Assembly (NCBI GenBank): GCA_021296215.1 | Contig: JAGWBA010000006.1 | Location: 1-55,137, forward strand | Reading direction: 5' to 3' | DNA length: 55,137 bases | Source: Flavobacteriales bacterium | GTDB taxonomy: Bacteria > Bacteroidota > Bacteroidia > Flavobacteriales > ECT2AJA-044 | In this document: positions 6,511 to 53,096 of the stretch, one piece after another | How positions within the stretch are numbered: position 1 is the first letter of the stretch | Layout of the letters: the number at the start of each line of letters is the position of its first letter | Position numbers and translations under genes: made by a program | Notes under the pieces: model-generated | Seen by the model: the letters and a program-made list of their open reading frames with translations, nothing else | Database searches by the model: none | Told to the model about the DNA's origin: nothing

Positions 6511-9500
6511 ATGAGGTACAGGATTTTAGGTTTTCTATTAGCTATTGCACATCTGACTATAGGTCAGAGTATTGTGATTACCGAGGTATCTCAGGGAACC
6601 TCAGGAAACATGCAATTCATTGAGTTCTTGGTTACAGAGCATAACAGCTGCTCATTAGATCTTAGGGGTTATATTTTCGACGACAACAATGGCGACTTTG
6701 GATCCGGCAGCGGATATGGAATTACCACTGGAGCGGCACGATTCGACCCGAACAACACTTTTTGGAGCGAAGTACCTATAGGAACGAGTATTACAATTTA
6801 TAACGACACTGATCCGCCACCGGGATTACCAGCAGATGACCTTTCATTGACCGATGGCAATTGTTCTTTGATTATTCCTATTTCTTCTGCTTTATTTGAG
6901 GGACATTCGTCGCAACCGGTTTCCACAGGCCCGAACACTTATGCTACCGGCGGTTGGGCTTCGGGTGCTAGTTGGGGTGATATTCAGATGGGAAATGATG
7001 ACGACTCATTTCAGATTCGAGCCAATGGAAGTTCTTCTCCGATCCATGCCATCAGCTGGGGAAACAATGCAAGCAGTCCTAACGCCATTATCACGGTATC
7101 CGGAGGCGTAGGTGGCCAAACCGTGTATTTCACTAATAGCTTAGGCAATGGCGATTATTTTGACCAGAACAACTATTCTGTCGGCAGTGCCGCAGCAGAT
7201 CAAACTCCAGGAATGCCGAATAGTGTAAATCACGCAGCCTTGCTTTCTACCATTTCCGGAACTTGCTCCAGCCCTTTGACTTTGAGTATTCCTACCTATA
7301 ACCTACCGACATGTACAACAACTGGCGATGTTGCTTTGAGTGTTTCTGGAGGCCGAGCACCCTATGTAAATGCTACAACTATGCCGGGCGGAGCTCCAGT
7401 GAATAACGGAATCAACAACGTATTCATCGGCCTCACCCCAGGTGTTTACGAATTCACCGTTACAGATGTTAATGGTTGTACTGTAGAAACGACCATAGAC
7501 CTGTTCGTTGATCCACCGATCATTTATACCGCAACAGCTTTCGCTTTGGGCACATGTTCTAATACATGTGATGCGAGCTATACGTTCATCGTTTCCGGTT
7601 CAACACCCAGTATGACCGTAACCTGGGATGGCCCCACGCCTGGCAGCTTAATAACCCCCGGTGGAAACATTACATTATCCAACTTATGCCCTGGCCCTTA
7701 TTCCATTACCGTGACAGACGGAAATGGTTGTGACGAAGACCTACCATTTACTGCCACGGTAGGCACAAACGCCACGTTTTTAAACAATACAACACCGGGC
7801 TCAGCAACAACTCAAACCAGCGCTGACGGAAGTGTGGCCTTGGGGGTTTCAGGTGCGACAATGGGACAAACATATCAATACAGCTATCAGAGCCCACCAA
7901 ACACCGGAACTATTACGACAACCTCAAGTAACCCGATCATCGGCCTTACAGCAGGGAACTACTCAGTAACTGTAACCACGGTACCAATGGGATGTACCGA
8001 TGAGGGAACTTTTACTATCGGATATAGCCAAGTAAATGTATCTACACAGGTGGTTTTAGGCGGAACTACACTAAGCGCCCCGTATTGGGTATGCCCCGAA
8101 ACAAATCCCTTGATCGAGATCTATTTGAATGGAGTAGAATTAGATGGTAGCTGGACCGTAAGTTTAGTGGCAACATCCTCAAATGGTGCAGTATCCAATG
8201 TCAATCAAGGATATCCGGCAGGAGTTAACGTGAATGATTATCCATACACCACCATAACGGGTACAGCAACTGATGGAAGCATTACGATTAATATTCCGCC
8301 CGTTGTGATCAATACCTACCAAAACCCTATTAGCAACTGGACGCCATTTGCTACCCCACTATGTCAAAACGCCGCTACTATTTCTGTATCAAGTCCTGTC
8401 GTTGACGGACCTAATTCATACAATGGAACTTTCGAATTGATTCAAAGTGTAGGGTCCGTAACACTTCAAGGGCCTGGGGTTTCATCGGTAAATATTGCCC
8501 CATCCACTTTAACAACTACGGGCGGGCACTTCCTCATTTTTACTTTCCAAGACAACGGATGTACCCTTAAAGACACCTTTAATTTCAACGTCGTAAATAC
8601 CGCCGATTACTCTGTAGCAGACCCGAGTCCGTTTTGCGATAATGACAACACACCATACTCCCTTTTTAACGCTATTACATGGAACTCGCTATTTCCGGAA
8701 AACCAAAACTTACACGTTTTCACGTCTGCAAGTGCAGGAGTAAGCGGTTCTAATTTTATTCCTTCGACCGCTGGTGGAGGTACACACACCATTACCGTAT
8801 CCTATACATTCAATGGTTGTACTGTTACAGATCAATTTGACATTACAGTAGATTGGTCTCCCGATTTAAGCACCTTGTTTACACCGTTTCCCCCTACAGT
8901 TTGTTCCGGAAGCACCTTGAGCTTACCTACTACGCCAGCTGGTGGGACTTGGTCCGGAAGTCCCGGAATCACTGGCCCGACTGGCGCCCAAATCATTGAT
9001 GCCTCGGGTCTGTCGCTAGGACCGCACACCCTTACTTATGCCGAAAACTTAAATTCCTGTCCGGCTCAGGTAACCATAACAGTAGAGAACCCACCCAATT
9101 TCAGCTACGTTGAAACGAGCATCTTTTGTCAGTCACAGGGCACCTATACCTTGACGAGTCCGACCGTGACGGGAGGAAGCGGTTCTGGTTCCGAATCCTG
9201 GCAGATCACGGGTAACCCCACACCCTACCCGACCATAGCAGGAAACACCATTGATGTGTCGAACATCAGTACTTGGGGGCCCTATACCATCACCTACACC
9301 TATCTTGATGACAATGGATGTTCGTACAGTGAAAACGAGTCGTTCACCGTTCAAGCCGACAACCGACCCTCGGCCATTGTGAATCCATTGAGTGTTTGCT
9401 CTAGTGATGCACTCGACCTTACCCAATCCGGTTATTTTTCCCCCTTGAATGGTGACATTTATTTGAACGGAGCACTGGTTCCTTCGGGAATTATTCAGGG

Positions 9501-12500
9501 AAGCGCTCTGACCGGGTCGAATGACGAAATCGACTATGTGATAACCACCAACGGATGCGAGTCGAGCGTTACGGTGCCCATTGACCTTTCGACGCCCTTT
9601 GGAACTTCCGGGCCCTATTCCGTCTCAACAACATGTAACGGCGTAGCCGATGCTACGGTTGCCGTCTACTTCGATTCCAACAATCCACCCTCCGGTTTTC
9701 CGAGTTACTATTGGAGTACCGGAAGTTTCGCCAGTTCACTGACCAATGTCGGACCCGGGACCTATACCGTTACTCTTTCGGACAATTCCGGTTGTCAAGT
9801 GATTCAAAGCTACACGGTAACTGAGCCACAGGCGATTTCAGGCAATTCGTCTATCACACACGTCTCATCCAACGGCGGATCCGATGGTGCTATCGACCTC
9901 ACGGTTTCGGGCGGATCAGGGGGCTATACCTATTTATGGTCGAACGGACTGCCACCGACACAGAATCAATCGGGCTTATCGGCCGGAACCTACTCAGTGA
10001 CCATCGTCGACGGAAATGGCTGTTCACAATTCCTATCGAACCTCGTGGTATCACAGCCAGGGCCTTTGACGGCGAGCGGCGCACATACCGACGTCAATTG
10101 TAACGGCGACAATTCGGGAGCCATAAATATCTCCGTAGGTGGGGGCTTTACGCCACCCGACGTACCGATGTACCAATTCCAATGGTCGCACGGCGAAACG
10201 ACGGAGGATGTTGCGAATCTGGCCGCAGGCCAATATTCCGTAACCGTTACTGCCGTTCCCACTTCCACCGAATCTCAAACGCTGAACTTTACGATCACCG
10301 AGCCGACAGTGCTTTCGCTTTCCGGAACCCCAAGCGACGTCCTTTGTTTCGGTCAGTCTACCGGAGCCATAACGACCACGGTATCGGGTGGTGCATCGCC
10401 CTACACGTACGAATGGAGCAACAACTTCGCGGTGGCTAATATTGGCGGCCTCTCGGCCGGAAGCTATTCTTTGACGGTTACAGACGACAATGGGTGCAAG
10501 GCGATTGAAGTGTTTACCTTAACCCAGCCGACAAACGGCTTTATGTTCGGCTTCCAGACGACAGCTGTGGACTGCTACGGAGATGCGTCGGGAGCGATTG
10601 ACCTGACTATGGATCTAAACGGAGCTACGCCGCCTTTCACATTCCTTTGGAGCAATGGTGCTACCACCGAAGACTTGACCAATATACCGGCCGGACTTTA
10701 CACCGTTGTGATTACAGATGACGTTGGCTGTACAGTAACCTTACCTGCGCCCGTTATAACTCAACCGGCCAATCCACTTGCCATTGTGAATCCGATCGTT
10801 GTGACGGACGTTACGAACTACGGTGCGGGCGACGGATCGGTGTCGTACCAGGTATCGGGTGGGACTCAACCTTACACCTACCAGTGGCAAGGCCCATCGG
10901 GCCCGATCACCGGTAATAACAGCATTACCGGCTTGGATGGAGGAAACTATTACACCACGGTTACCGACGCGAACGGGTGTACGGGTACTGCTTTTTTCAC
11001 CGTTAACGAACCCGGACTTCTGACCCTTTCAGGTACGGTGACCGATGAGACTTGTTTGGGTACCGCGGACGGATCGATCGACCTCACCGTTAGCGCCAAC
11101 GGAACACCTGCCTATGTTTGGTCAAATGGAACCACAACAGAGGACTTGAGTGGTTTGGCCGTCGGAATGTACAGTGTAACAGTGGTGGATGCTCCACAAA
11201 TCGATACCGCCGTTTTCTATGTAAGCGCGGCTACCATTCTCGATTTTAACCTCAGTTTACCGGCCGACACCTTCTGTACGCAGGATACCTTGTTCTTAAG
11301 CGGAACAACAACGAATACAGGAGCCACTGAAACGTATAAGATCGACGGGCAGGTAGTTACGGGTACATTCGAGTTATTGTCGGGTTATACACTTGGGCCG
11401 CACACTTTGACCTATGTCGTGAGCGCGGGTGGATGTACGGACAGTGTATCGGTCGGATTTGAGTTGGTTGAACCGTACCTGTGGGTGCCGCAAAGCAGTG
11501 TTCAGGTGTGCACCACGGGCTCTACAGTGAATTTGACCTCGTTGCTGAATGCTGCGACCATCGTTACCTTGCCCGACACCGGGCGATGGGCGGATCCGAC
11601 GGGCGCATCGGTTTCGAGTACGATGGATCCGACGGTTGGACCATTCGGCGTGTATGACTACAGCATTTCAAATTACTGCGGTGAGGTCGTGTATCAAATG
11701 GACGTGAGTGCCATTCAGAATCCGATCGTGTTCAGCACCCCCGACAGTATTTGTCAGAGTGGTGGCACCCTCGACCTAAACACCTTGGTCACACCTACCG
11801 GCGGAACCTGGGCCGGTGGAACTACGACGGGAATCTTTGATCCGTCCGTGGCCAGTCCAAGCCCATTCTGGTTCTTCTACACGACTACGCTGAGTGGCTG
11901 TACCTTCACCGACAGCATCCAAATACAAGTGGTAGCGAATCCGGTAGTGACGATCGATTCAACGGCAATTCCAGCCCTTTGTACCGCGCAAGGGTCTGAC
12001 ACGTTGAGCTTTGGCCAGCCCGTTGGTGGAATTTACACATCGAGTACCGCGGTGATCGGTCAAGCCGGAACCAGCTTCGTTCTCGACCCCGCAGCCTCTG
12101 GAGCCGGAGTACACGATATTGCGTACACCTATACAGACCCATCTACGGGCTGTGTCGACAGCATCGTGCTGACCCTCACTATTGACGCTACGGTCGCTAC
12201 GGCCATTGGGCCATTTGCAGACACCTTGTGCGTTGGTGATGCTCCGGTGCCTTTGCCAGTTTCACTTCCTGCCGGAGGTATTTTGACCGGACCCGGTATT
12301 TCGGGCGGTAATTTTAGTCCGGCCGCAGCCGGCGTAGGGACACATCAACTCTTGTATAGTTTCCCCAGCGACCCTTGTTATATTGCCGATTCCATCGAAG
12401 TAGTGGTCACCGATGTGCCGGCGATCACCATGCCCGTGCTGGCTGATATTTGTTCGAGTGATCCGGCACTTACGCTTACAGGGGCAACGCCTGCCGGAGG

Positions 12501-13578
12501 AACCTGGATCGGAAACATAGTGGTGAACGGACTCTTTTTACCGGGCATCGCCGGGCCGGGAGTACACGATATCGTGTACTACTACAACAGCGGTGGAGCT
12601 TGTGAGAACTACGACACCACTCAGATCACGGTTTTGGCCGGTTCGCCACTTAGTATCGGAACAGTACCGGGGTTCTGTTCGAATGGAAGTGCACAGCCGC
12701 TTTCGTGTGTGTCTCCGAATGGTGGAACATATTCGGGTCCGGGAGTTCAGAGCAACGTTTTTTCTCCACAGATCGCCGGAGTGGGAAGTCATTCGATCAC
12801 CTATACGTATACCAACCTATTCGGGTGTGTCACAGACACGATCTTCAATATTCAGGTGAATGATGTTCCGGCCGTAACGGTGGGCTTCGTTCCCGACTTT
12901 TGTCAAGAGAATCCGCCCGCAGTACTCGATTGGGGTGTACCGGGAGGCGGTTATTATTCGGGCCCCGGGGTAGTGAACGACAGTGTTTTTGACCCCGGCA
13001 TGACAGGTCCCGGAAGCTTCATTTGCACTTATACGTATGTAGATCCGATCGGTTGTACAGCGTCCTTGTCGGTCTACATAGACGTACACCCGACTCCGCC
13101 AACACCGGGAATCAACAAAACGCTGAATTTCTTGGTGTGCGATTGGGGTTTCTACCATTACCAATGGTTCTTCGATGGCGATTCGATACCCAACTCGAAC
13201 ATCATTAAATGGACCGCCACGGATACTGGTTATTATCAGGTAATGTTGATCAACGAATGGGGTTGTACCAACATTTCGGATTCGCTACTTGTGAGCGTTA
13301 TTTACGCGACCGACCTCAGTGAAGAGGCCTGGCAGAACTTGGTGATGTGTCCGAACCCGACGCGCGACTTGGTATACGTAGAGTTGCCAATCCGGCCGCA
13401 GGCCGTAAAATACCAATGGGTAAATGCGATGGGGCAAGTTGTGGATGAAGGTGAGCTGCCCGCGGGCGATCCGATGCGTTGGCGATACGACATGACTCAT
13501 TTGGCAGATGGTTACTACACGTTTGTGCTGCGCGACAGTGAGCGAGTGCTGCATTTCAGGATGTTACTACAGCGTTAA
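6511..13578 (+). CDS. Giant secreted adhesin with SprB-like repeats and T9SS sorting domain
   Basis: A 2355-aa secreted protein. Residues 1-19 are a signal peptide ending near TIGQS. A lamin-tail-like region follows, starting IVITEVSQGTSGNMQFIEF. Residues about 1030-1560 hold at least seven SprB-type repeats of the pattern VSGG..PYTY.WSNG.TTEDLSGL.AG.Y.VTV.D.NGC. Residues about 800-855 and 1750-2190 carry PKD-like repeats with GGTWSG and GPG..FDP..AG.G.H...Y.Y. The last 80 residues are a type A T9SS sorting domain (CPNPTRDLVYVEL, then DGYYTFVL). By analogy with SprB, it is likely exported by the Sec and T9SS systems to the cell surface for adhesion or gliding. The 5' third is visibly more AT-rich than the rest. 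Confidence 0.88.
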   Translation: MRYRILGFLLAIAHLTIGQSIVITEVSQGTSGNMQFIEFLVTEHNSCSLDLRGYIFDDNNGDFGSGSGYGITTGAARFDPNNTFWSEVPIGTSITIYNDTDPPPGLPADDLSLTDGNCSLIIPISSALFEGHSSQPVSTGPNTYATGGWASGASWGDIQMGNDDDSFQIRANGSSSPIHAISWGNNASSPNAIITVSGGVGGQTVYFTNSLGNGDYFDQNNYSVGSAAADQTPGMPNSVNHAALLSTISGTCSSPLTLSIPTYNLPTCTTTGDVALSVSGGRAPYVNATTMPGGAPVNNGINNVFIGLTPGVYEFTVTDVNGCTVETTIDLFVDPPIIYTATAFALGTCSNTCDASYTFIVSGSTPSMTVTWDGPTPGSLITPGGNITLSNLCPGPYSITVTDGNGCDEDLPFTATVGTNATFLNNTTPGSATTQTSADGSVALGVSGATMGQTYQYSYQSPPNTGTITTTSSNPIIGLTAGNYSVTVTTVPMGCTDEGTFTIGYSQVNVSTQVVLGGTTLSAPYWVCPETNPLIEIYLNGVELDGSWTVSLVATSSNGAVSNVNQGYPAGVNVNDYPYTTITGTATDGSITINIPPVVINTYQNPISNWTPFATPLCQNAATISVSSPVVDGPNSYNGTFELIQSVGSVTLQGPGVSSVNIAPSTLTTTGGHFLIFTFQDNGCTLKDTFNFNVVNTADYSVADPSPFCDNDNTPYSLFNAITWNSLFPENQNLHVFTSASAGVSGSNFIPSTAGGGTHTITVSYTFNGCTVTDQFDITVDWSPDLSTLFTPFPPTVCSGSTLSLPTTPAGGTWSGSPGITGPTGAQIIDASGLSLGPHTLTYAENLNSCPAQVTITVENPPNFSYVETSIFCQSQGTYTLTSPTVTGGSGSGSESWQITGNPTPYPTIAGNTIDVSNISTWGPYTITYTYLDDNGCSYSENESFTVQADNRPSAIVNPLSVCSSDALDLTQSGYFSPLNGDIYLNGALVPSGIIQGSALTGSNDEIDYVITTNGCESSVTVPIDLSTPFGTSGPYSVSTTCNGVADATVAVYFDSNNPPSGFPSYYWSTGSFASSLTNVGPGTYTVTLSDNSGCQVIQSYTVTEPQAISGNSSITHVSSNGGSDGAIDLTVSGGSGGYTYLWSNGLPPTQNQSGLSAGTYSVTIVDGNGCSQFLSNLVVSQPGPLTASGAHTDVNCNGDNSGAINISVGGGFTPPDVPMYQFQWSHGETTEDVANLAAGQYSVTVTAVPTSTESQTLNFTITEPTVLSLSGTPSDVLCFGQSTGAITTTVSGGASPYTYEWSNNFAVANIGGLSAGSYSLTVTDDNGCKAIEVFTLTQPTNGFMFGFQTTAVDCYGDASGAIDLTMDLNGATPPFTFLWSNGATTEDLTNIPAGLYTVVITDDVGCTVTLPAPVITQPANPLAIVNPIVVTDVTNYGAGDGSVSYQVSGGTQPYTYQWQGPSGPITGNNSITGLDGGNYYTTVTDANGCTGTAFFTVNEPGLLTLSGTVTDETCLGTADGSIDLTVSANGTPAYVWSNGTTTEDLSGLAVGMYSVTVVDAPQIDTAVFYVSAATILDFNLSLPADTFCTQDTLFLSGTTTNTGATETYKIDGQVVTGTFELLSGYTLGPHTLTYVVSAGGCTDSVSVGFELVEPYLWVPQSSVQVCTTGSTVNLTSLLNAATIVTLPDTGRWADPTGASVSSTMDPTVGPFGVYDYSISNYCGEVVYQMDVSAIQNPIVFSTPDSICQSGGTLDLNTLVTPTGGTWAGGTTTGIFDPSVASPSPFWFFYTTTLSGCTFTDSIQIQVVANPVVTIDSTAIPALCTAQGSDTLSFGQPVGGIYTSSTAVIGQAGTSFVLDPAASGAGVHDIAYTYTDPSTGCVDSIVLTLTIDATVATAIGPFADTLCVGDAPVPLPVSLPAGGILTGPGISGGNFSPAAAGVGTHQLLYSFPSDPCYIADSIEVVVTDVPAITMPVLADICSSDPALTLTGATPAGGTWIGNIVVNGLFLPGIAGPGVHDIVYYYNSGGACENYDTTQITVLAGSPLSIGTVPGFCSNGSAQPLSCVSPNGGTYSGPGVQSNVFSPQIAGVGSHSITYTYTNLFGCVTDTIFNIQVNDVPAVTVGFVPDFCQENPPAVLDWGVPGGGYYSGPGVVNDSVFDPGMTGPGSFICTYTYVDPIGCTASLSVYIDVHPTPPTPGINKTLNFLVCDWGFYHYQWFFDGDSIPNSNIIKWTATDTGYYQVMLINEWGCTNISDSLLVSVIYATDLSEEAWQNLVMCPNPTRDLVYVELPIRPQAVKYQWVNAMGQVVDEGELPAGDPMRWRYDMTHLADGYYTFVLRDSERVLHFRMLLQR

Positions 13579-13620
13579 GTCTTTGGGTTTTTGCACCTTT
13601 GGAGCACTGCAGATGGTGCC

Positions 13621-16504
13621 ATGCGGAAGATACGTTTACTCTTATTATCTCTTTTTCTGATTTTCTCGGGACTCAGTGCCTTAGCTCAGTGCGGCAATCT
13701 GAGTTTCAATTGGGGGGATCTGGACGGAAGTTCAGACACCATTTTTTTAACCACGGGAGACACCGCCCATTTATTTGCTACCGCCCCAGCTTCGCTGACC
13801 GATACCTCTTTTTTCAAATGGTATGTAGGAAATGGAACAACAACGATCGGTGATACGGTAGATCTTGTTTTAAATGATAAAGGATTCTTTGAAGGAGGAG
13901 TTCAGGTCGAATCCAACAGCTGTAAAAGTTCGCTTCAACCTATTTATTTTTTGGTCAGCGAGTCATTAAACTGGAGTGGTTTGAGTTGGAGCGATTCTAT
14001 TTGTTTCCATGGAACGGCTTATTTTCAGTTTGACTCGTTTGAGCCAGATACGCTCGTAAAGAAGTGTGACTCGCTTAGACTAGAGCCCGTTCTACTGGAA
14101 GACGAAACTACTGATACTCCGGATACCACATATCGAGACACTCTGATCGTCGATTGCTACTCGTCAAACGACGGCATTCTTCAGCCATCGGATTTGGTTT
14201 CAATTTGTCTGAACATAGAGCATAGTTGGGTGGGAGATATCAGTATGATTCTATATGCTCCATCCGGCGATTCTGTAGTTGTGTATCCGCAATCCGCATT
14301 TTCGTCAGCTAACCTTGGTGAACCCGTAAACTATACCTTCTCAAACGATGCAGCCGGAGTTGGATACACTTATTGTTTTACAGAGAACCAACCAGACTTT
14401 GGAACACTAGGGAATCAATCCTCGGTTTACTATACATATACCGACAACCAAGGATTCTACCGAACTGGATTCCATATGCCTGTAGGATCTTACTTACCCG
14501 AGGAGTTCTTTTCACAGTTAGTTGGTTCTCCAATAAATGGTGAATGGGTTTTGCAGATTACGGACCACGTAGGAAGCGATAATGGTTGGTTATTCGATCC
14601 GACTTCGGCCGGGAATCACACGTTTACGATAACCGTGGAAGACACCGTACTTCGTCGTTCTATCGATACAACACTTACGGTTTTCGTAGATACCTTTCCA
14701 ACCCCCCCAAGCAAATGAAGCTGACATATGTATTGATGACACCTTCCCATGGCTCGTAAATTCCGGAATTGGAGAAGAGTCCATTTGGTACTATCCCGAC
14801 ACCACAACCGTATGGGCAACGGGCGATAGTGTTGCTCCGCCGCTATTAACCGCCGTCGATACCCACTTCGTATTCTTAAAGGGCACTTCCCTGCAATGTG
14901 GGTCAACGTGGGACACTGCGGTATACATCCGCCACGCCGACCTCTCGCTATTTGCACCCAACGTGACCATTATGGCGGGTCAATCGGCCACCTTGGGCGC
15001 TACTGCCTCAGGCGGTTTCGGAAACTATGCTTACAGCTGGCTTCCGTCGATCCCACTGACCGGTGAAAATACTCAACACCCAACCACCCGGATCTTGTAC
15101 GACGACCTAAATGCCTTCGTTACAGCCACTGATCAACTCACCGGATGCTCCATAAGCCGGATCGTTCAGATCTTCGTCAATAGCCCGCTCAATGTTTTGG
15201 CGGGTAACAACGATACATTGTGCACCGGATCCGACTTCACCCTCCAGGCCACGATCGACAACAATGGCCTGCCCTACGATTCACTCCGGTGGACCACCCC
15301 CGACACGACATTCAACACCAACCCGGTAACCTTTACACCCACCTCATCCGGCTGGTACACCTTTTTGGCGTGGGACGACCAATTCACCGATTCAGACTCG
15401 CTCTACCTGCAAGTCACAACCCCGATTACGGCCGGATCAGATTATGTTGACACCCTTTGCACCCTAACGACCCCTCCTCTTTCCAGCGTCCTTGATCCGT
15501 CGACCGCCTCGGGAGGCTCGTGGTTCGATTATCTAGGAAACCCCATCGACGGTAATTCCGCGGCCGGAATAGGAACGCACCTCTACGTGGTATCCCAAGC
15601 CCCCTGTCCCGCAGATACTGCCGAGTACACTTTTGTATATTCCGGAATATCCAACCTGCCTGCCTCCGATTCGGCCTCGTGGTGCCAAAACAGCGGCATT
15701 CAAAGCATTCAGGGACTATCCGTCGGCACCGACACCGCCTCCATCGGATGGCACAGCTACACTCAAGTTCTTTCAAACGGCCCTTGCTCCGACACCGTGA
15801 CGCGTTACTACGAAATAAAGCTCCAACCCCAAGCACAGTGGCTCGTATATCCGACCGATCCCTGCCTCGACGCTTCACCCACACTGCTCGATGCGTCCCC
15901 GACCGGAGGCCTATTCTCCGGCCCCGGAATCGCCTAGAACACCTTCGATCCTGGATTGGCGGGTCCCGGAATGCACGAGCTCCTGTACACCGTGGATATC
16001 AACGGCTGCATTGATATCGATACCGTTTCTGTGGAAGTGCACGACCTGCCCCCGACACCAACCATTCAACAAAATGGCCACGACCTTATGGCGCAGCCAA
16101 CGGGGTACGTTTATCAATGGCAGTTAAACGGCTCTCCGATGGCCGGTTACACGAGCCAAACCATCACTGCTCCGCAAGACGGCGAGTACACCGTCACGAT
16201 CACCTCGCCCTTCAGCTGTTCGGCTATATCTGCACCTTACCAGTTCACGACCGTAGGCATGTCAGAGTCTTTCTCTCAAACTTGATCTCTCTACCCCAAT
16301 CCTACTGCTCACACCTTACGGGTGGATGGCCAACTGGATGTCCGTTCATGGGCGGTGCTCGATATTAGTGGCCGCACGGTCATCAGTGGCGAGGACTACC
16401 TTCCGGAAGTCATCGACGTGGCTCGGTGGTCGAACGGCAAGTACTTTCTGCGCATCACAACGGACCAAAACACGGAGGTTCTACCTTTCGTAGTTCAGCA
16501 TTAA
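13621..16504 (+). pseudogene. Broken T9SS adhesin with P-domain and PKD-like repeats
   Basis: One long coding sequence interrupted three times. ATG 13621 begins a signal peptide (LLLLSLFLIFSGLSALAQ). A proprotein-convertase P-domain-like region follows (ICLNIEHSWVGDISMILYAPSG to INGEWVLQITDH in pieces). The frame ends at 14718. At a run of seven C (14702-14708) the reading shifts by one base and continues without a gap as PPQANEADICIDDTFPW. TAG at 15935 and TGA at 16283 then interrupt this frame. Beyond each stop the homology resumes: NTFDPGLAGPGMHELLYTV after the first, and SLYPNPTAHTLRVDG, the start of a T9SS sorting domain, after the second. Restoring a C6 run and reading two C-to-T nonsense changes as sense codons would give about 960 aa. 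It is a paralogue of the upstream adhesin. Sequencing error at C7 is possible, less so for all three lesions. Confidence 0.78.
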
Positions 16505-16578
16505 GTCCAATTTCGACTAATTTATTCCTGTAGCACCAAGGGCCATTTTAAGGCCCCGACCTACCCTTCCTTTGGAAC

Positions 16579-17373
16579 ATGAAACTTTGGTTGGGTTATG
16601 CGCTGTGTATGGTAGGTGTATGTTACGGTCAGGCCGACCCCTACGGTCTACCTCCTATCGAGAGCGGCTTGGCCGCTTCGAGTTTAACGCACTCCTCCGA
16701 GGGATCGTCCGGCTTACCGGCGCCCTCCAAGCCGGAAACCGGTAGTCAGGCGATCCTTTATCACGGCGTTCGACCATCGAGTCCCGCAGTCCGGCGTTCG
16801 GGCTTGCGTTATTGCGGAAGTTGGAGCAGATACACCTACTCTGTCGATGTGGGCCGCATTGGCTGGGATCAAATCCAAAGCCATCGATTCCGAATAGGCC
16901 TATCGGTACCGCTGGTCAAACATCGGATTGGAGCCCGCTGGATCGTTGAGCAGTGGTTTCGCACCGAAACGGGAACACCTTGGCGCACCTATCCGGAGAT
17001 CGCCATTTGGAGCCGGTTTAAATCGGATTGGAATTACGCCGTCAAAGTGGTTAACCCAACTGGAGTTAAATGGTCCGAAACCGATCAAAAGACCGAACCC
17101 TGGGTACAGGCCGAGCTTCGCCGAACCGTCATCGACAAGGTCGAATTACATCTCGGTTGGCGAACCTTCGAATCCGAATCGCAATGGTCCATCGGTTCAT
17201 CGTGGCAGCTGAACGATGAGTTGCTTTTGGTTAGCGGAATATCCTCAGGGCCACTATGGTTTTCATTCGGAAGCCTCTGGAAACACAAAGCACTCGGCAT
17301 TCACCTCGCGACGCAATTAAACGATCATCTGGGATGGGAAATCGCGGCTGGACTCTCGTGGCGGTCGGATTGA
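16579..17373 (+). CDS. Secreted protein, probably outer-membrane beta-barrel
   Basis: A 264-aa protein with a signal peptide cut near CYGQAD. The mature N-terminus has a low-complexity Ser/Pro/Gly stretch (roughly residues 30-55). The rest alternates hydrophobic and polar residues and ends in aromatic-rich strands (WFSFGSLW, WEIAAGLSW), as in outer-membrane beta-barrels. No named family is recognised with certainty; weak resemblance to PorV/PorQ-type barrels is possible. The next gene starts inside its last 40 nt, so the two products are likely made together and may work together. TTCCTTTG, one mismatch from the -7 consensus, lies 4 nt before the ATG. Confidence 0.6.
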   Translation: MKLWLGYALCMVGVCYGQADPYGLPPIESGLAASSLTHSSEGSSGLPAPSKPETGSQAILYHGVRPSSPAVRRSGLRYCGSWSRYTYSVDVGRIGWDQIQSHRFRIGLSVPLVKHRIGARWIVEQWFRTETGTPWRTYPEIAIWSRFKSDWNYAVKVVNPTGVKWSETDQKTEPWVQAELRRTVIDKVELHLGWRTFESESQWSIGSSWQLNDELLLVSGISSGPLWFSFGSLWKHKALGIHLATQLNDHLGWEIAAGLSWRSD

Positions 17374-19130
17374 GCCTTTTGGCCACGGCTCAGACACCGA
17401 TCGAATCTACCGAGACCTTCGGAGATATCGAGGGGCGGTCGACCAATACCATCGATATGGAACAATGGGCCGCTTGGAAACAAGACCCCCTGTTGATCAA
17501 CGAAGCCACATTGGAGGACCTCACCTTATTGCCGGGAGTCAATGAAGTGATGGCCCATCAACTTCTCGAATACCGATTGCGCGTCGGAATCATTAAAACC
17601 AAGTACGAGATCGTAATACTCAAGAGTTGGAGTGCACACCACGTCGATCAAATAGTTCCGTTCGTTAGCTTTGAGTCTCCGCCACGCTCGCAATTCGGCA
17701 ATTTGCGAGGTCATATTCGACACGACCTGATGATCCGAACCAAGACCGACCACACTCCGGCCGAGGAGATCTTGGCCGGAACCGCGTCTGGGAACAACAC
17801 CTACGGGTACCTGAGGTATGTAGGAAAAAAGGGACGTGGATTAACTTGGGGTTTCGCGGCAGAAAAAGACCACGGCGAAGGGTTGAAATACAAGGATCAA
17901 TGGATCGTACATCGCTGCGCTTACCTTCAATGGAATACTGGATGGAGACCCCTGGAAGAGTTAACCGCGGGCTCTTTTCGTTTGAGTTGGGGACAGGGCT
18001 TGGCCATTGCCGATGGATATCGCGGTGGTGTTGGTCCGCAACTGCGTACTAATCCGACCGTTCGACTCACTGGTCATGCGAGCTCAAGTGAATACGGCTA
18101 TCAACAAGGAGTAATACTTAGAGGTCGGATATCAACTTTTAGGTACGGACTCTGGTATAGTTCCTCGCCAAAAGCGATCAAAGCCGACACCGAGAATGAC
18201 CTTTGGTCTACTGAATATTCCGACGGATTATTCAGGTCCGAGCAACGACTCCAATGGTGGAGATCGAGTAAGGAAGTCAGAAAAGGAGCCTATGGTTACA
18301 TCAAGCTTCGGGGCCTGACCTTGGGAGTCCTGCAAGAACAACGAAAATGGGTCGGAGTTGGCCCCATTGAAAGTATGACCGCTTTGACGAAAAACCTACG
18401 ATCGGGAGTCGTGCGATGGCAAGGGAATGAGTTGTTGATTTCGGGTGAAGTATTCGTTTCGGAAGAAAGAACGAGTTATGAGGTTCAATCGGTTTGGATC
18501 CCCGACGATCAGTGGAAGGCCAGATTGAGTTACCGGAAAGTCCCTATGACCGAACCCGGAGTTCTGCCGACCTTTTACTTCCTCATCCGCCCGCAGGGCG
18601 AAGAAATATTCACTGCGGAACAGTGGTGGAACCCCATTCCGTATACCCAGATTTATCTATTCAGGCGAAAACGCACAGGCGATCGCCGATGGGGATTTCG
18701 TCTGAATCACGGTCGAGATGACAACGTTCGCATTCAGGTTGACGGACAAAGAGACGAGCCGGATGGAAGGATCCGGGGGCGCATCCAGATTCGAAAGTCC
18801 ATAGGGAAGTGGGTCGGCACGGTCCGCAGTCAATGGAACAAGAGTAGCGCGGGATCGGGCTCACTTTGGTTTCTAGCTGCACAGTGGCGCCCCAATGAGC
18901 ATTGGCGGATTTATACTCGATGGACGGTATATCGAACTGAGGATTACGATCATCGACTATATGCCTATGAGAATGACTTACTGTACGTGTTTTCCGTTCC
19001 GGCGTTCTACGGCGAGGGATCTAAATTCTACGCCATGGTGGTGTCGCGATGGGGCTCGCATCAGTTCTGGCTCAAGGTGAGCTGTGACAAGGTCGTGGAC
19101 TGGAGCATTCAATATCGGCTATCGCTATGA
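17334..19130 (+). CDS. Helix-hairpin-helix (ComEA-like) outer-membrane barrel protein
   Basis: A 598-aa protein from ATG 17334, where a signal peptide begins (TLVAVGLSLLATAQ). An upstream in-frame ATG (17256) would bury that signal. Residues about 50-115 contain two helix-hairpin-helix units: INEATLEDLTLLPGVNEVMA, then a second around YEIVILKSWSAHHVDQIVPF. The remaining 470 residues are rich in alternating aromatic/polar strands (e.g. YLRYVGKKGRGLTWGFAAEKDHGEG, quoted in part) and contain SWGQGLAIADGYRGG, typical of a Bacteroidota-specific beta-barrel family. HhH units normally bind DNA without sequence preference; here they would face the periplasm. Function is undescribed as far as I know, and a DNA-uptake role is only an inference. 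It overlaps the preceding barrel gene by 40 nt. Confidence 0.72.
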   Translation: MGNRGWTLVAVGLSLLATAQTPIESTETFGDIEGRSTNTIDMEQWAAWKQDPLLINEATLEDLTLLPGVNEVMAHQLLEYRLRVGIIKTKYEIVILKSWSAHHVDQIVPFVSFESPPRSQFGNLRGHIRHDLMIRTKTDHTPAEEILAGTASGNNTYGYLRYVGKKGRGLTWGFAAEKDHGEGLKYKDQWIVHRCAYLQWNTGWRPLEELTAGSFRLSWGQGLAIADGYRGGVGPQLRTNPTVRLTGHASSSEYGYQQGVILRGRISTFRYGLWYSSSPKAIKADTENDLWSTEYSDGLFRSEQRLQWWRSSKEVRKGAYGYIKLRGLTLGVLQEQRKWVGVGPIESMTALTKNLRSGVVRWQGNELLISGEVFVSEERTSYEVQSVWIPDDQWKARLSYRKVPMTEPGVLPTFYFLIRPQGEEIFTAEQWWNPIPYTQIYLFRRKRTGDRRWGFRLNHGRDDNVRIQVDGQRDEPDGRIRGRIQIRKSIGKWVGTVRSQWNKSSAGSGSLWFLAAQWRPNEHWRIYTRWTVYRTEDYDHRLYAYENDLLYVFSVPAFYGEGSKFYAMVVSRWGSHQFWLKVSCDKVVDWSIQYRLSL

Positions 19131-52529: not shown

Positions 52530-53096
52530 ATGGCTTTTGACGAACACCTTGCGGAACGAATCAGGCAATCACTTCAGCAGCGATCCACCTCCTACATTGA
52601 AAAGAAAATGTTCGGTGGGCTCTGTTTTATGGTCGATGACAAAATGTGCATTGGGGTCGTAAAGAACGAACTGATGGCGCGGGTAACTCCAAATGAAGAC
52701 AGCATCTGGCTTGGAATGCCGGGCACCCGAATGATGGATTTCACCGGAAAGTCCATGAAGGGCTTTTACTTCGTTTCGCCCGAAGGCGTGGATCAGCAGG
52801 AGCACCTCGACCGGTGGGTCGACGCCTGCTTGGATTTTAATCCGATCGCTAAATCCAACAAACAAAGAAGAAATGAGGATCGGAATCGATGCGTACATCG
52901 ACCGTTGCATATCGATCGACAACGACGAAAGAGCCTACTTCCACTCTATTCTGAAGCCGCGAAAATTCGCGAAGAAAGAGCATTTACTCAAAGCCGGCGA
53001 GATCCGCGATTGGGAAGCCTTCGTAGAAAAGGGCTGTCTCCGCGTATACTACCTCGACGAAAATGGTGGAGAGGTCAACCTCATGTTCGCCATTGA
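52530..53096 (+). CDS. TfoX/Sxy N-terminal domain protein with shifted tail
   Basis: Residues 1-110 are a complete TfoX N-terminal domain: YIEKKMFGGLCFMVDDKM, MGFY-like GFYFVSPEG, and LDRWVDACLDFNPIAKS. The domain normally ends a few lysines later. Here reading continues for about 75 basic, low-quality residues that overlap the next gene. If one A is restored near 52860, the protein ends as KSNKTKKK with a TGA at 52874-52876 that overlaps the ATG of the Crp gene as ATGA. I regard that as the ancestral end (115 aa). TfoX/Sxy proteins regulate competence in some proteobacteria; the role of this stand-alone N-domain is unknown. Confidence 0.72.
   Translation: MAFDEHLAERIRQSLQQRSTSYIEKKMFGGLCFMVDDKMCIGVVKNELMARVTPNEDSIWLGMPGTRMMDFTGKSMKGFYFVSPEGVDQQEHLDRWVDACLDFNPIAKSNKQRRNEDRNRCVHRPLHIDRQRRKSLLPLYSEAAKIREERAFTQSRRDPRLGSLRRKGLSPRILPRRKWWRGQPHVRH

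Follow-up and report, generated by a model that had tools for sequence, protein, structure and literature searches.

The 55,137-nucleotide stretch of Flavobacteriales DNA analysed here (hereafter the window) carries two overlapping genes, one for a small outer-membrane barrel and one for a larger barrel protein bearing a helix-hairpin-helix (HhH) domain, which together probably form an outer-membrane DNA-uptake apparatus feeding ComEA and ComEC. From their setting we infer DNA as the substrate, the direction of its movement, which barrel is the channel and the physical contact between the two proteins. This reading is better supported by genomic context than by the HhH itself, and its link to ComEC, a genomic one, was found in one family (f17) and not in the window's own genome. 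The pair is a strong candidate for the missing outer-membrane step of DNA uptake in Bacteroidota. In the passages available of a study on Porphyromonas gingivalis, ComEA and ComEC are essential, while DNA import into the periplasm “remains unclear” (PMC11532111), and those of another describe Flavobacterium johnsoniae as non-transformable under conditions where R. columbina transforms (PMC7965970). ComEC evolution in Bacteroidetes has been treated elsewhere, with no f17-type operon in the passages at hand (PMC6299819), and the portion available of a further article holds the relevant terms in its reference list only (PMC10219603). No published description of the barrel, the pair or the operon was found among titles and the opening lines of abstracts, a scope that leaves out most subscription journals and all preprints.

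The small barrel gene lies upstream and the large HhH gene downstream, both on the forward strand (Table 1). The open reading frame of the large protein spans 17256-19130, its start being placed at the second ATG. The overlap with a second barrel-like protein, already reported by the sequence-only reading, is thereby borne out; at 40 nt it compares with mostly 4-14 nt in relatives (4 or 11 nt being typical), where the genes may also simply abut. Neither protein reaches the cut-off of any Pfam or NCBIfam family.

Table 1. Coordinates of the gene pair in the window, and of nuclease-like genes in other loci (prefixed L).
Feature	Position	Strand	Basis
Small barrel, 264-aa PorV/FadL-like 14-strand outer-membrane protein	16579..17373	+	ORF list, profile, AlphaFold, Foldseek
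Large HhH barrel protein, 598 aa from the likeliest start codon, ATG 17334	17334..19130	+	ORF list, Pfam, alignment, AlphaFold
Overlap of both genes, 40 nt; putative translational coupling	17334..17373	+	
HhH domain, about residues 39-112 of the large barrel protein	17448..17669	+	Pfam, profile, model, alignment
Barrel part of the large protein, residues 131-598	17724..19127	+	Model of low to moderate confidence
Family motif EKDxGE, large barrel protein	17862..17879	+	Alignment
Nuclease-like gene beside the Riemerella-type receptor locus	L251 1591-2685; L252 1010-2230; L253 6578-7660		
Nuclease-like gene beside the Riemerella-type receptor locus (continued)	L254 7039-8145; L274 3015-4076; L275 8719-9759		

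Three further genes of the window deserve mention. The one just upstream of the pair (13591-16505) looks broken, with open reading frames apart at 13591-14718, 14963-15937 and 15956-16285, as frameshifts or stops, or assembly errors, would leave it; at the same place a congener has a single frame of 1518 aa (L029 2459-7015). Before it, 6511-13578 (+) encodes what is probably a large surface protein, 2355 aa long and containing SprB repeats (E 5e-30). The distant gene noted earlier for its TfoX domain is real (52530-53096, +; TfoX_N, a competence-regulator domain, E 3e-15); it lies close to a pirin-like gene, 33 kb away from the pair.

The large protein is made up of a hydrophobic N-terminal stretch, the HhH region and a long strand-rich part, an order from which the HhH is predicted to be periplasmic. 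That an HhH region is joined to a large barrel, as proposed from the letters alone, is confirmed by Pfam, by matches to ComEA structures and by AlphaFold. HHH_3 covers residues 55-111 (E 5e-5; 23.8 bits, under the cut-off of 27) and the TIGR01259 comE model gives E 0.015, while a profile of 18 relatives matches the ComEA structures 8dss (4e-7) and 8dfk (1.7e-6) in the HhH region only; through its HhH the family profile also matches EEPD1. In the AlphaFold model residues 39-110 are well folded (most 10-residue blocks at 83-94), and the barrel part, with about 20 long strands, is modelled weakly (mean pLDDT 65, pTM 0.51); for this model Foldseek returned generic porin-like barrels only. Within the EKDxGE motif, D179, G181 and E182 are invariant in 18 as well as in 53 aligned sequences.

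The canonical GxG hairpin of the HhH serves DNA-backbone contact. In a common alignment (non-gap rows), 12/12 soluble ComEA-like domains keep the second glycine of the first hairpin, against 0/8 HhH fusions of the small barrel and 2/96 large barrels (0/13, 2/37 and 0/46 in three sets), the rows left unplaced being 1/13 soluble domains, 2/10 fusions and 2/110 large barrels. Barrel-borne HhH mostly have N, S or T at this position, and the window's hairpin reads LPGVN, departing from the canonical GxG. With this glycine lost, the barrel-borne HhH may not grip DNA; instead of binding it in the manner of ComEA, the domain may serve to dock ComEA or to line the exit. As a test of DNA binding, the domain's mean net charge was set aside because it does not discriminate: soluble ComEA itself has -0.4, the fusions +1.1 and the three large-barrel sets +0.6, -1.1 and -3.3.

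The small partner is modelled with more confidence, as a 14-strand barrel (AlphaFold, pLDDT 84.6). Its best Foldseek match is PorV (6h3i_F, query-normalised TM-score 0.73), with FadL and OmpG also found, and the family profile matches PorV by sequence at 3.6e-10 over an N-terminal stretch (columns 1-98), the place of the hatch motif in PorV, where the window copy is degenerate. Longer small-barrel frames, of about 383-406 aa, occur in families f25, f28 and f41, and in 10/10 of those fetched a C-terminal HhH follows the PorV-like barrel (these 10 regions are part of 18 examined, the remaining 8 being other cases); the one fusion scanned gave HHH_3 at 5e-17. The large HhH barrel is encoded at a separate locus in the same three families. 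Taken with the HhH on the large barrel, these fusions indicate that the HhH accompanies the small as well as the large partner.

How widely is the pair distributed? Among 198 genomes drawn evenly from the phylum, a large-barrel profile built from 18 sequences finds its target in 152/198 at E <= 1e-49 and in 184/198 at 1e-5, the weak matches of f3 and some others being at the level of the HhH only, in genomes that carry a soluble protein with three HhH. The small barrel is present in 110/198. Both barrels occur in 105 genomes, the large one only in 47 (at the threshold used), the small one only in 5 and neither in 41 (Fisher 1.5e-12, with shared ancestry uncorrected); the five small-only genomes have intermediate large-barrel matches of 1e-17 to 1e-34. 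The two barrels have been lost together. The sole close relative is a congener (39% identity), in which both genes recur in unchanged order. In 111/138 loci the small barrel immediately precedes the large one, so that adjacency is not due to chance: 16/18 in the order, 72/80 in named Cytophagales and 23/40 in the phylum-wide spread. Three of the 27 misses have less than 700 nt of upstream sequence, and one further miss (L224) has what looks by eye like a diverged small-barrel copy. A non-adjacent small barrel can sit elsewhere in the genome, as in f19 (G117, G209, G229) and f30 (G087, G116). The two genes do co-occur, which answers the lack of co-occurrence that the sequence-only reading had named as a refuting outcome. 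An apparent two-barrel fusion at L210 was rejected as read-through of the upstream frame without a small-barrel match, and a protein of G128 proved to be a 100% match to an Algoriphagus boseongensis contig.

The likeness of the small barrel to PorV, in sequence and in the model, also suits a second SprA/PorV-like secretion device or shuttle, in which the PorV-like barrel would escort secreted proteins and the HhH would be a protein-protein docking module comparable to that of the type II secretion pseudopilin GspK. The lost hairpin glycine and the repeat-rich SprB-like gene upstream in the window fit such a device, as do some HhH segments that match T2SSK_1st (1.4e-5). It is nevertheless an unlikely reading, given the comEC operon described below and the distribution of SprA. 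SprA occurs in 154/198 genomes, including 20/20 genomes of f3 and f6 that have no barrel and no pair, and the SprA-less f30 genomes listed do carry the large barrel; we infer that f3 and f6 resemble Flavobacteriaceae and Weeksellaceae, and f30 Chlorobiaceae. Membership of the type IX secretion system, suggested by the PorV-like barrel and the SprB-like upstream gene, was rejected on this distribution.

Further evidence for a role in DNA uptake comes from gene order. When the places of the large barrel and ComEC were compared, the two were adjacent in four genomes, all of family f17, in the order small barrel, HhH barrel, comEC in three (G132, G173, G189) and barrel, comEC in G061, with spacings of 3, -1, 2 and -10 nt measured between barrel and comEC. 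The large barrel is present in 103/121 f17 genomes and 23/25 genera. Directly downstream of it comes comEC in 29/30 f17 loci, and the small barrel is upstream in 30/30. In 20 further f17 regions, mostly one per genus, an automatic count gave comEC downstream in 18, and 19 once L322 was read and its next gene, 2 nt away, was seen to be comEC-like (7e-82); the small barrel is directly upstream in 17/20. Across the union of both sets comEC follows the barrel in 22/23 genera that have it, genus g135 being the exception in both, while genus g54 lacks the barrel (0/12), which is read as a loss. The identity of ComEC is attested by Pfam Competence (4.7e-54). No comEC gene was found beside the pair outside f17 among the other loci examined, including the window and its nearest relative. 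In f19, comEC adjoins instead the gene for a soluble ComEA with three HhH, with a 2-nt gap in G117 (L232 7714-10712, read); the coordinates point to such a pair in G092, G209 and G213 as well.

Could this linkage be a historical accident in one family, the pair serving envelope biogenesis or small-molecule transport? The FadL-like fold of the small barrel, the confinement of the comEC linkage to f17 and the near-universal presence of ComEC would agree with this; the linkage may indeed go back to a single ancestral event, though it has been maintained since. Its retention in 22/23 genera at near-zero spacing, together with the HhH fusions to the small barrel, makes such an accident quite improbable. 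Co-occurrence with ComEC by itself was not counted as evidence, since a protein found in 197/198 genomes is uninformative by its presence alone.

In order and class together, 49/49 genomes have ComEC and a ComEA-like protein with three HhH. The idea that the large barrel is itself the ComEA of Bacteroidota was therefore rejected, the ComEA-like protein being a separate one in all 49. In the window organism it is a 233-aa protein with an LPGIG hairpin (G000:C15; L277 5943-6644), whose gene immediately precedes, in the same orientation, an adenine phosphoribosyltransferase-like gene; the congener shows this arrangement too. A secretin was found in 0/28 genomes of the same class, all of which have ComEC and ComEA. 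It does occur in 6/18 f3 genomes and in the window genome, there on a 3.6-kb contig with secretion-like neighbours, so that a pilus or type II route is possible in the window organism. Neither protein of the pair has a Pfam match to the secretin domain (PF00263).

In the order and class, most genomes without the large barrel carry another locus. In Riemerella anatipestifer, according to the part of the study available, transposon screening and subsequent deletions identified eight genes essential for transformation, among them RS02645 (HhH), RS04915 (barrel with a carboxypeptidase-regulatory domain) and RS04920 (DUF5689), four of the essential proteins being of unknown type (PMC8459023). A locus with domains of the RA0C_RS04915/RS04920 type was found through DUF5689 in f3, f6 and G117 (in L252, PF13620 at 1e-10 and DUF5689 at 2.9e-56), the match resting on domains and gene order and not on the Riemerella sequences themselves. 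In the six f3 and f6 comEC regions read, RS04915-type genes are not beside comEC. The receptor profile of this locus (A7) finds 27/198 genomes at E < 1e-100. Of the 49 genomes of order and class, 20 have the barrel only, 23 A7 only (17 in f3, 2 in f6 and 4 in f18), 4 both (G092, G117, G143, G209) and 2 neither (G150, G185), so that 23/25 barrel-less genomes carry the Riemerella-type locus as judged by domains. This complementarity gives Fisher 7e-8, with shared ancestry uncorrected, and 0.14 within f18 alone. Outside order and class no genome has A7 at E < 1e-100, and 21 there have neither at the thresholds used, for a total of 23/198 without strong barrel and strong A7. The window genome has a distant A7-like and DUF5689-like pair (G000:C9; L278 2523-7608; A7 2.4e-34, DUF5689 8e-11).

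In several genomes the Riemerella-type receptor locus has a divergently oriented neighbour, a secreted endonuclease/exonuclease/phosphatase-like gene (Table 1); in L252, the sole one scanned, it matches PF19580 at 6.7e-100, and is a possible DNase beside a DNA-uptake candidate.

An HhH joined to a barrel would also fit a pair that binds or imports extracellular DNA to adhere or to feed and plays no part in transformation, and the environmental lifestyle we presume would suit it. The co-operonic partner in f17 is however ComEC, the transformation channel, and genomes with the locus that matches transformation-essential Riemerella genes largely lack the pair, which leaves this use of DNA very unlikely.

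The DNA-handling role that the sequence-only reading had offered as plausible thus gains from the comEC operon, the HhH fusions of the small barrel, the co-loss of the pair and its near-complementarity with the Riemerella-type locus; its view of the HhH as a DNA-binding ComEA domain is on weaker ground, since almost every barrel-borne copy has lost the second hairpin glycine and the domain is, by net charge, not clearly basic. In the DNA-uptake apparatus proposed here, the large barrel would be the likely passage or gate for DNA, with its periplasmic HhH guiding incoming double-stranded DNA or docking the receptor ComEA. The PorV/FadL-like barrel would partner it, perhaps in the role of surface receptor or of plug; PorV acts as a plug for SprA. 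DNA would next reach the ComEA-like protein anchored in the inner membrane and cross by way of ComEC. For the phylum as a whole, we see an even chance that most Bacteroidota import DNA by a two-barrel machine unrelated to type IV pili and secretins, which hands it to ComEA and ComEC, and that Flavobacteriaceae-like lineages and some others replaced this machine with a TonB-receptor-like system. As a candidate, the pair is concrete and deletable and has a defined operon; it occurs across most of the phylum as sampled and predicts which route each lineage uses. If true, it would be an outer-membrane DNA channel based on neither secretin nor pilus, with a bearing on gene transfer in soil, marine and gut bacteria.

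Four known systems invite comparison. Like ComEA, the large barrel has a homologous HhH, predicted to be periplasmic, and its gene has in f17 the linkage to comEC that the soluble ComEA gene has in f19; unlike ComEA, it is a 598-aa protein with about 20 modelled barrel strands rather than a small soluble or inner-membrane-anchored one, has lost the second hairpin glycine and coexists with a separate ComEA-like protein in the same genome. The small barrel shares with PorV its 14 strands, an N-terminal profile match and a larger barrel as genomic partner, but it is shorter (264 aa vs about 400), its N-terminal motif is degenerate in the window copy and its distribution is independent of SprA. 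Uptake by PilQ and type IV pili would serve the same step, the passage of DNA across the outer membrane ahead of ComEA and ComEC, yet that route is secretin-based and the pair has no secretin domain. The Riemerella pair RA0C_RS04915/RS04920 is likewise a barrel with a partner gene and a proposed outer-membrane step of transformation; it differs in its type of barrel, its CarboxypepD_reg domain, its DUF5689 partner and its lack of an HhH, whereas the window pair has, by Pfam, neither a CarboxypepD_reg-like N-domain nor DUF5689.
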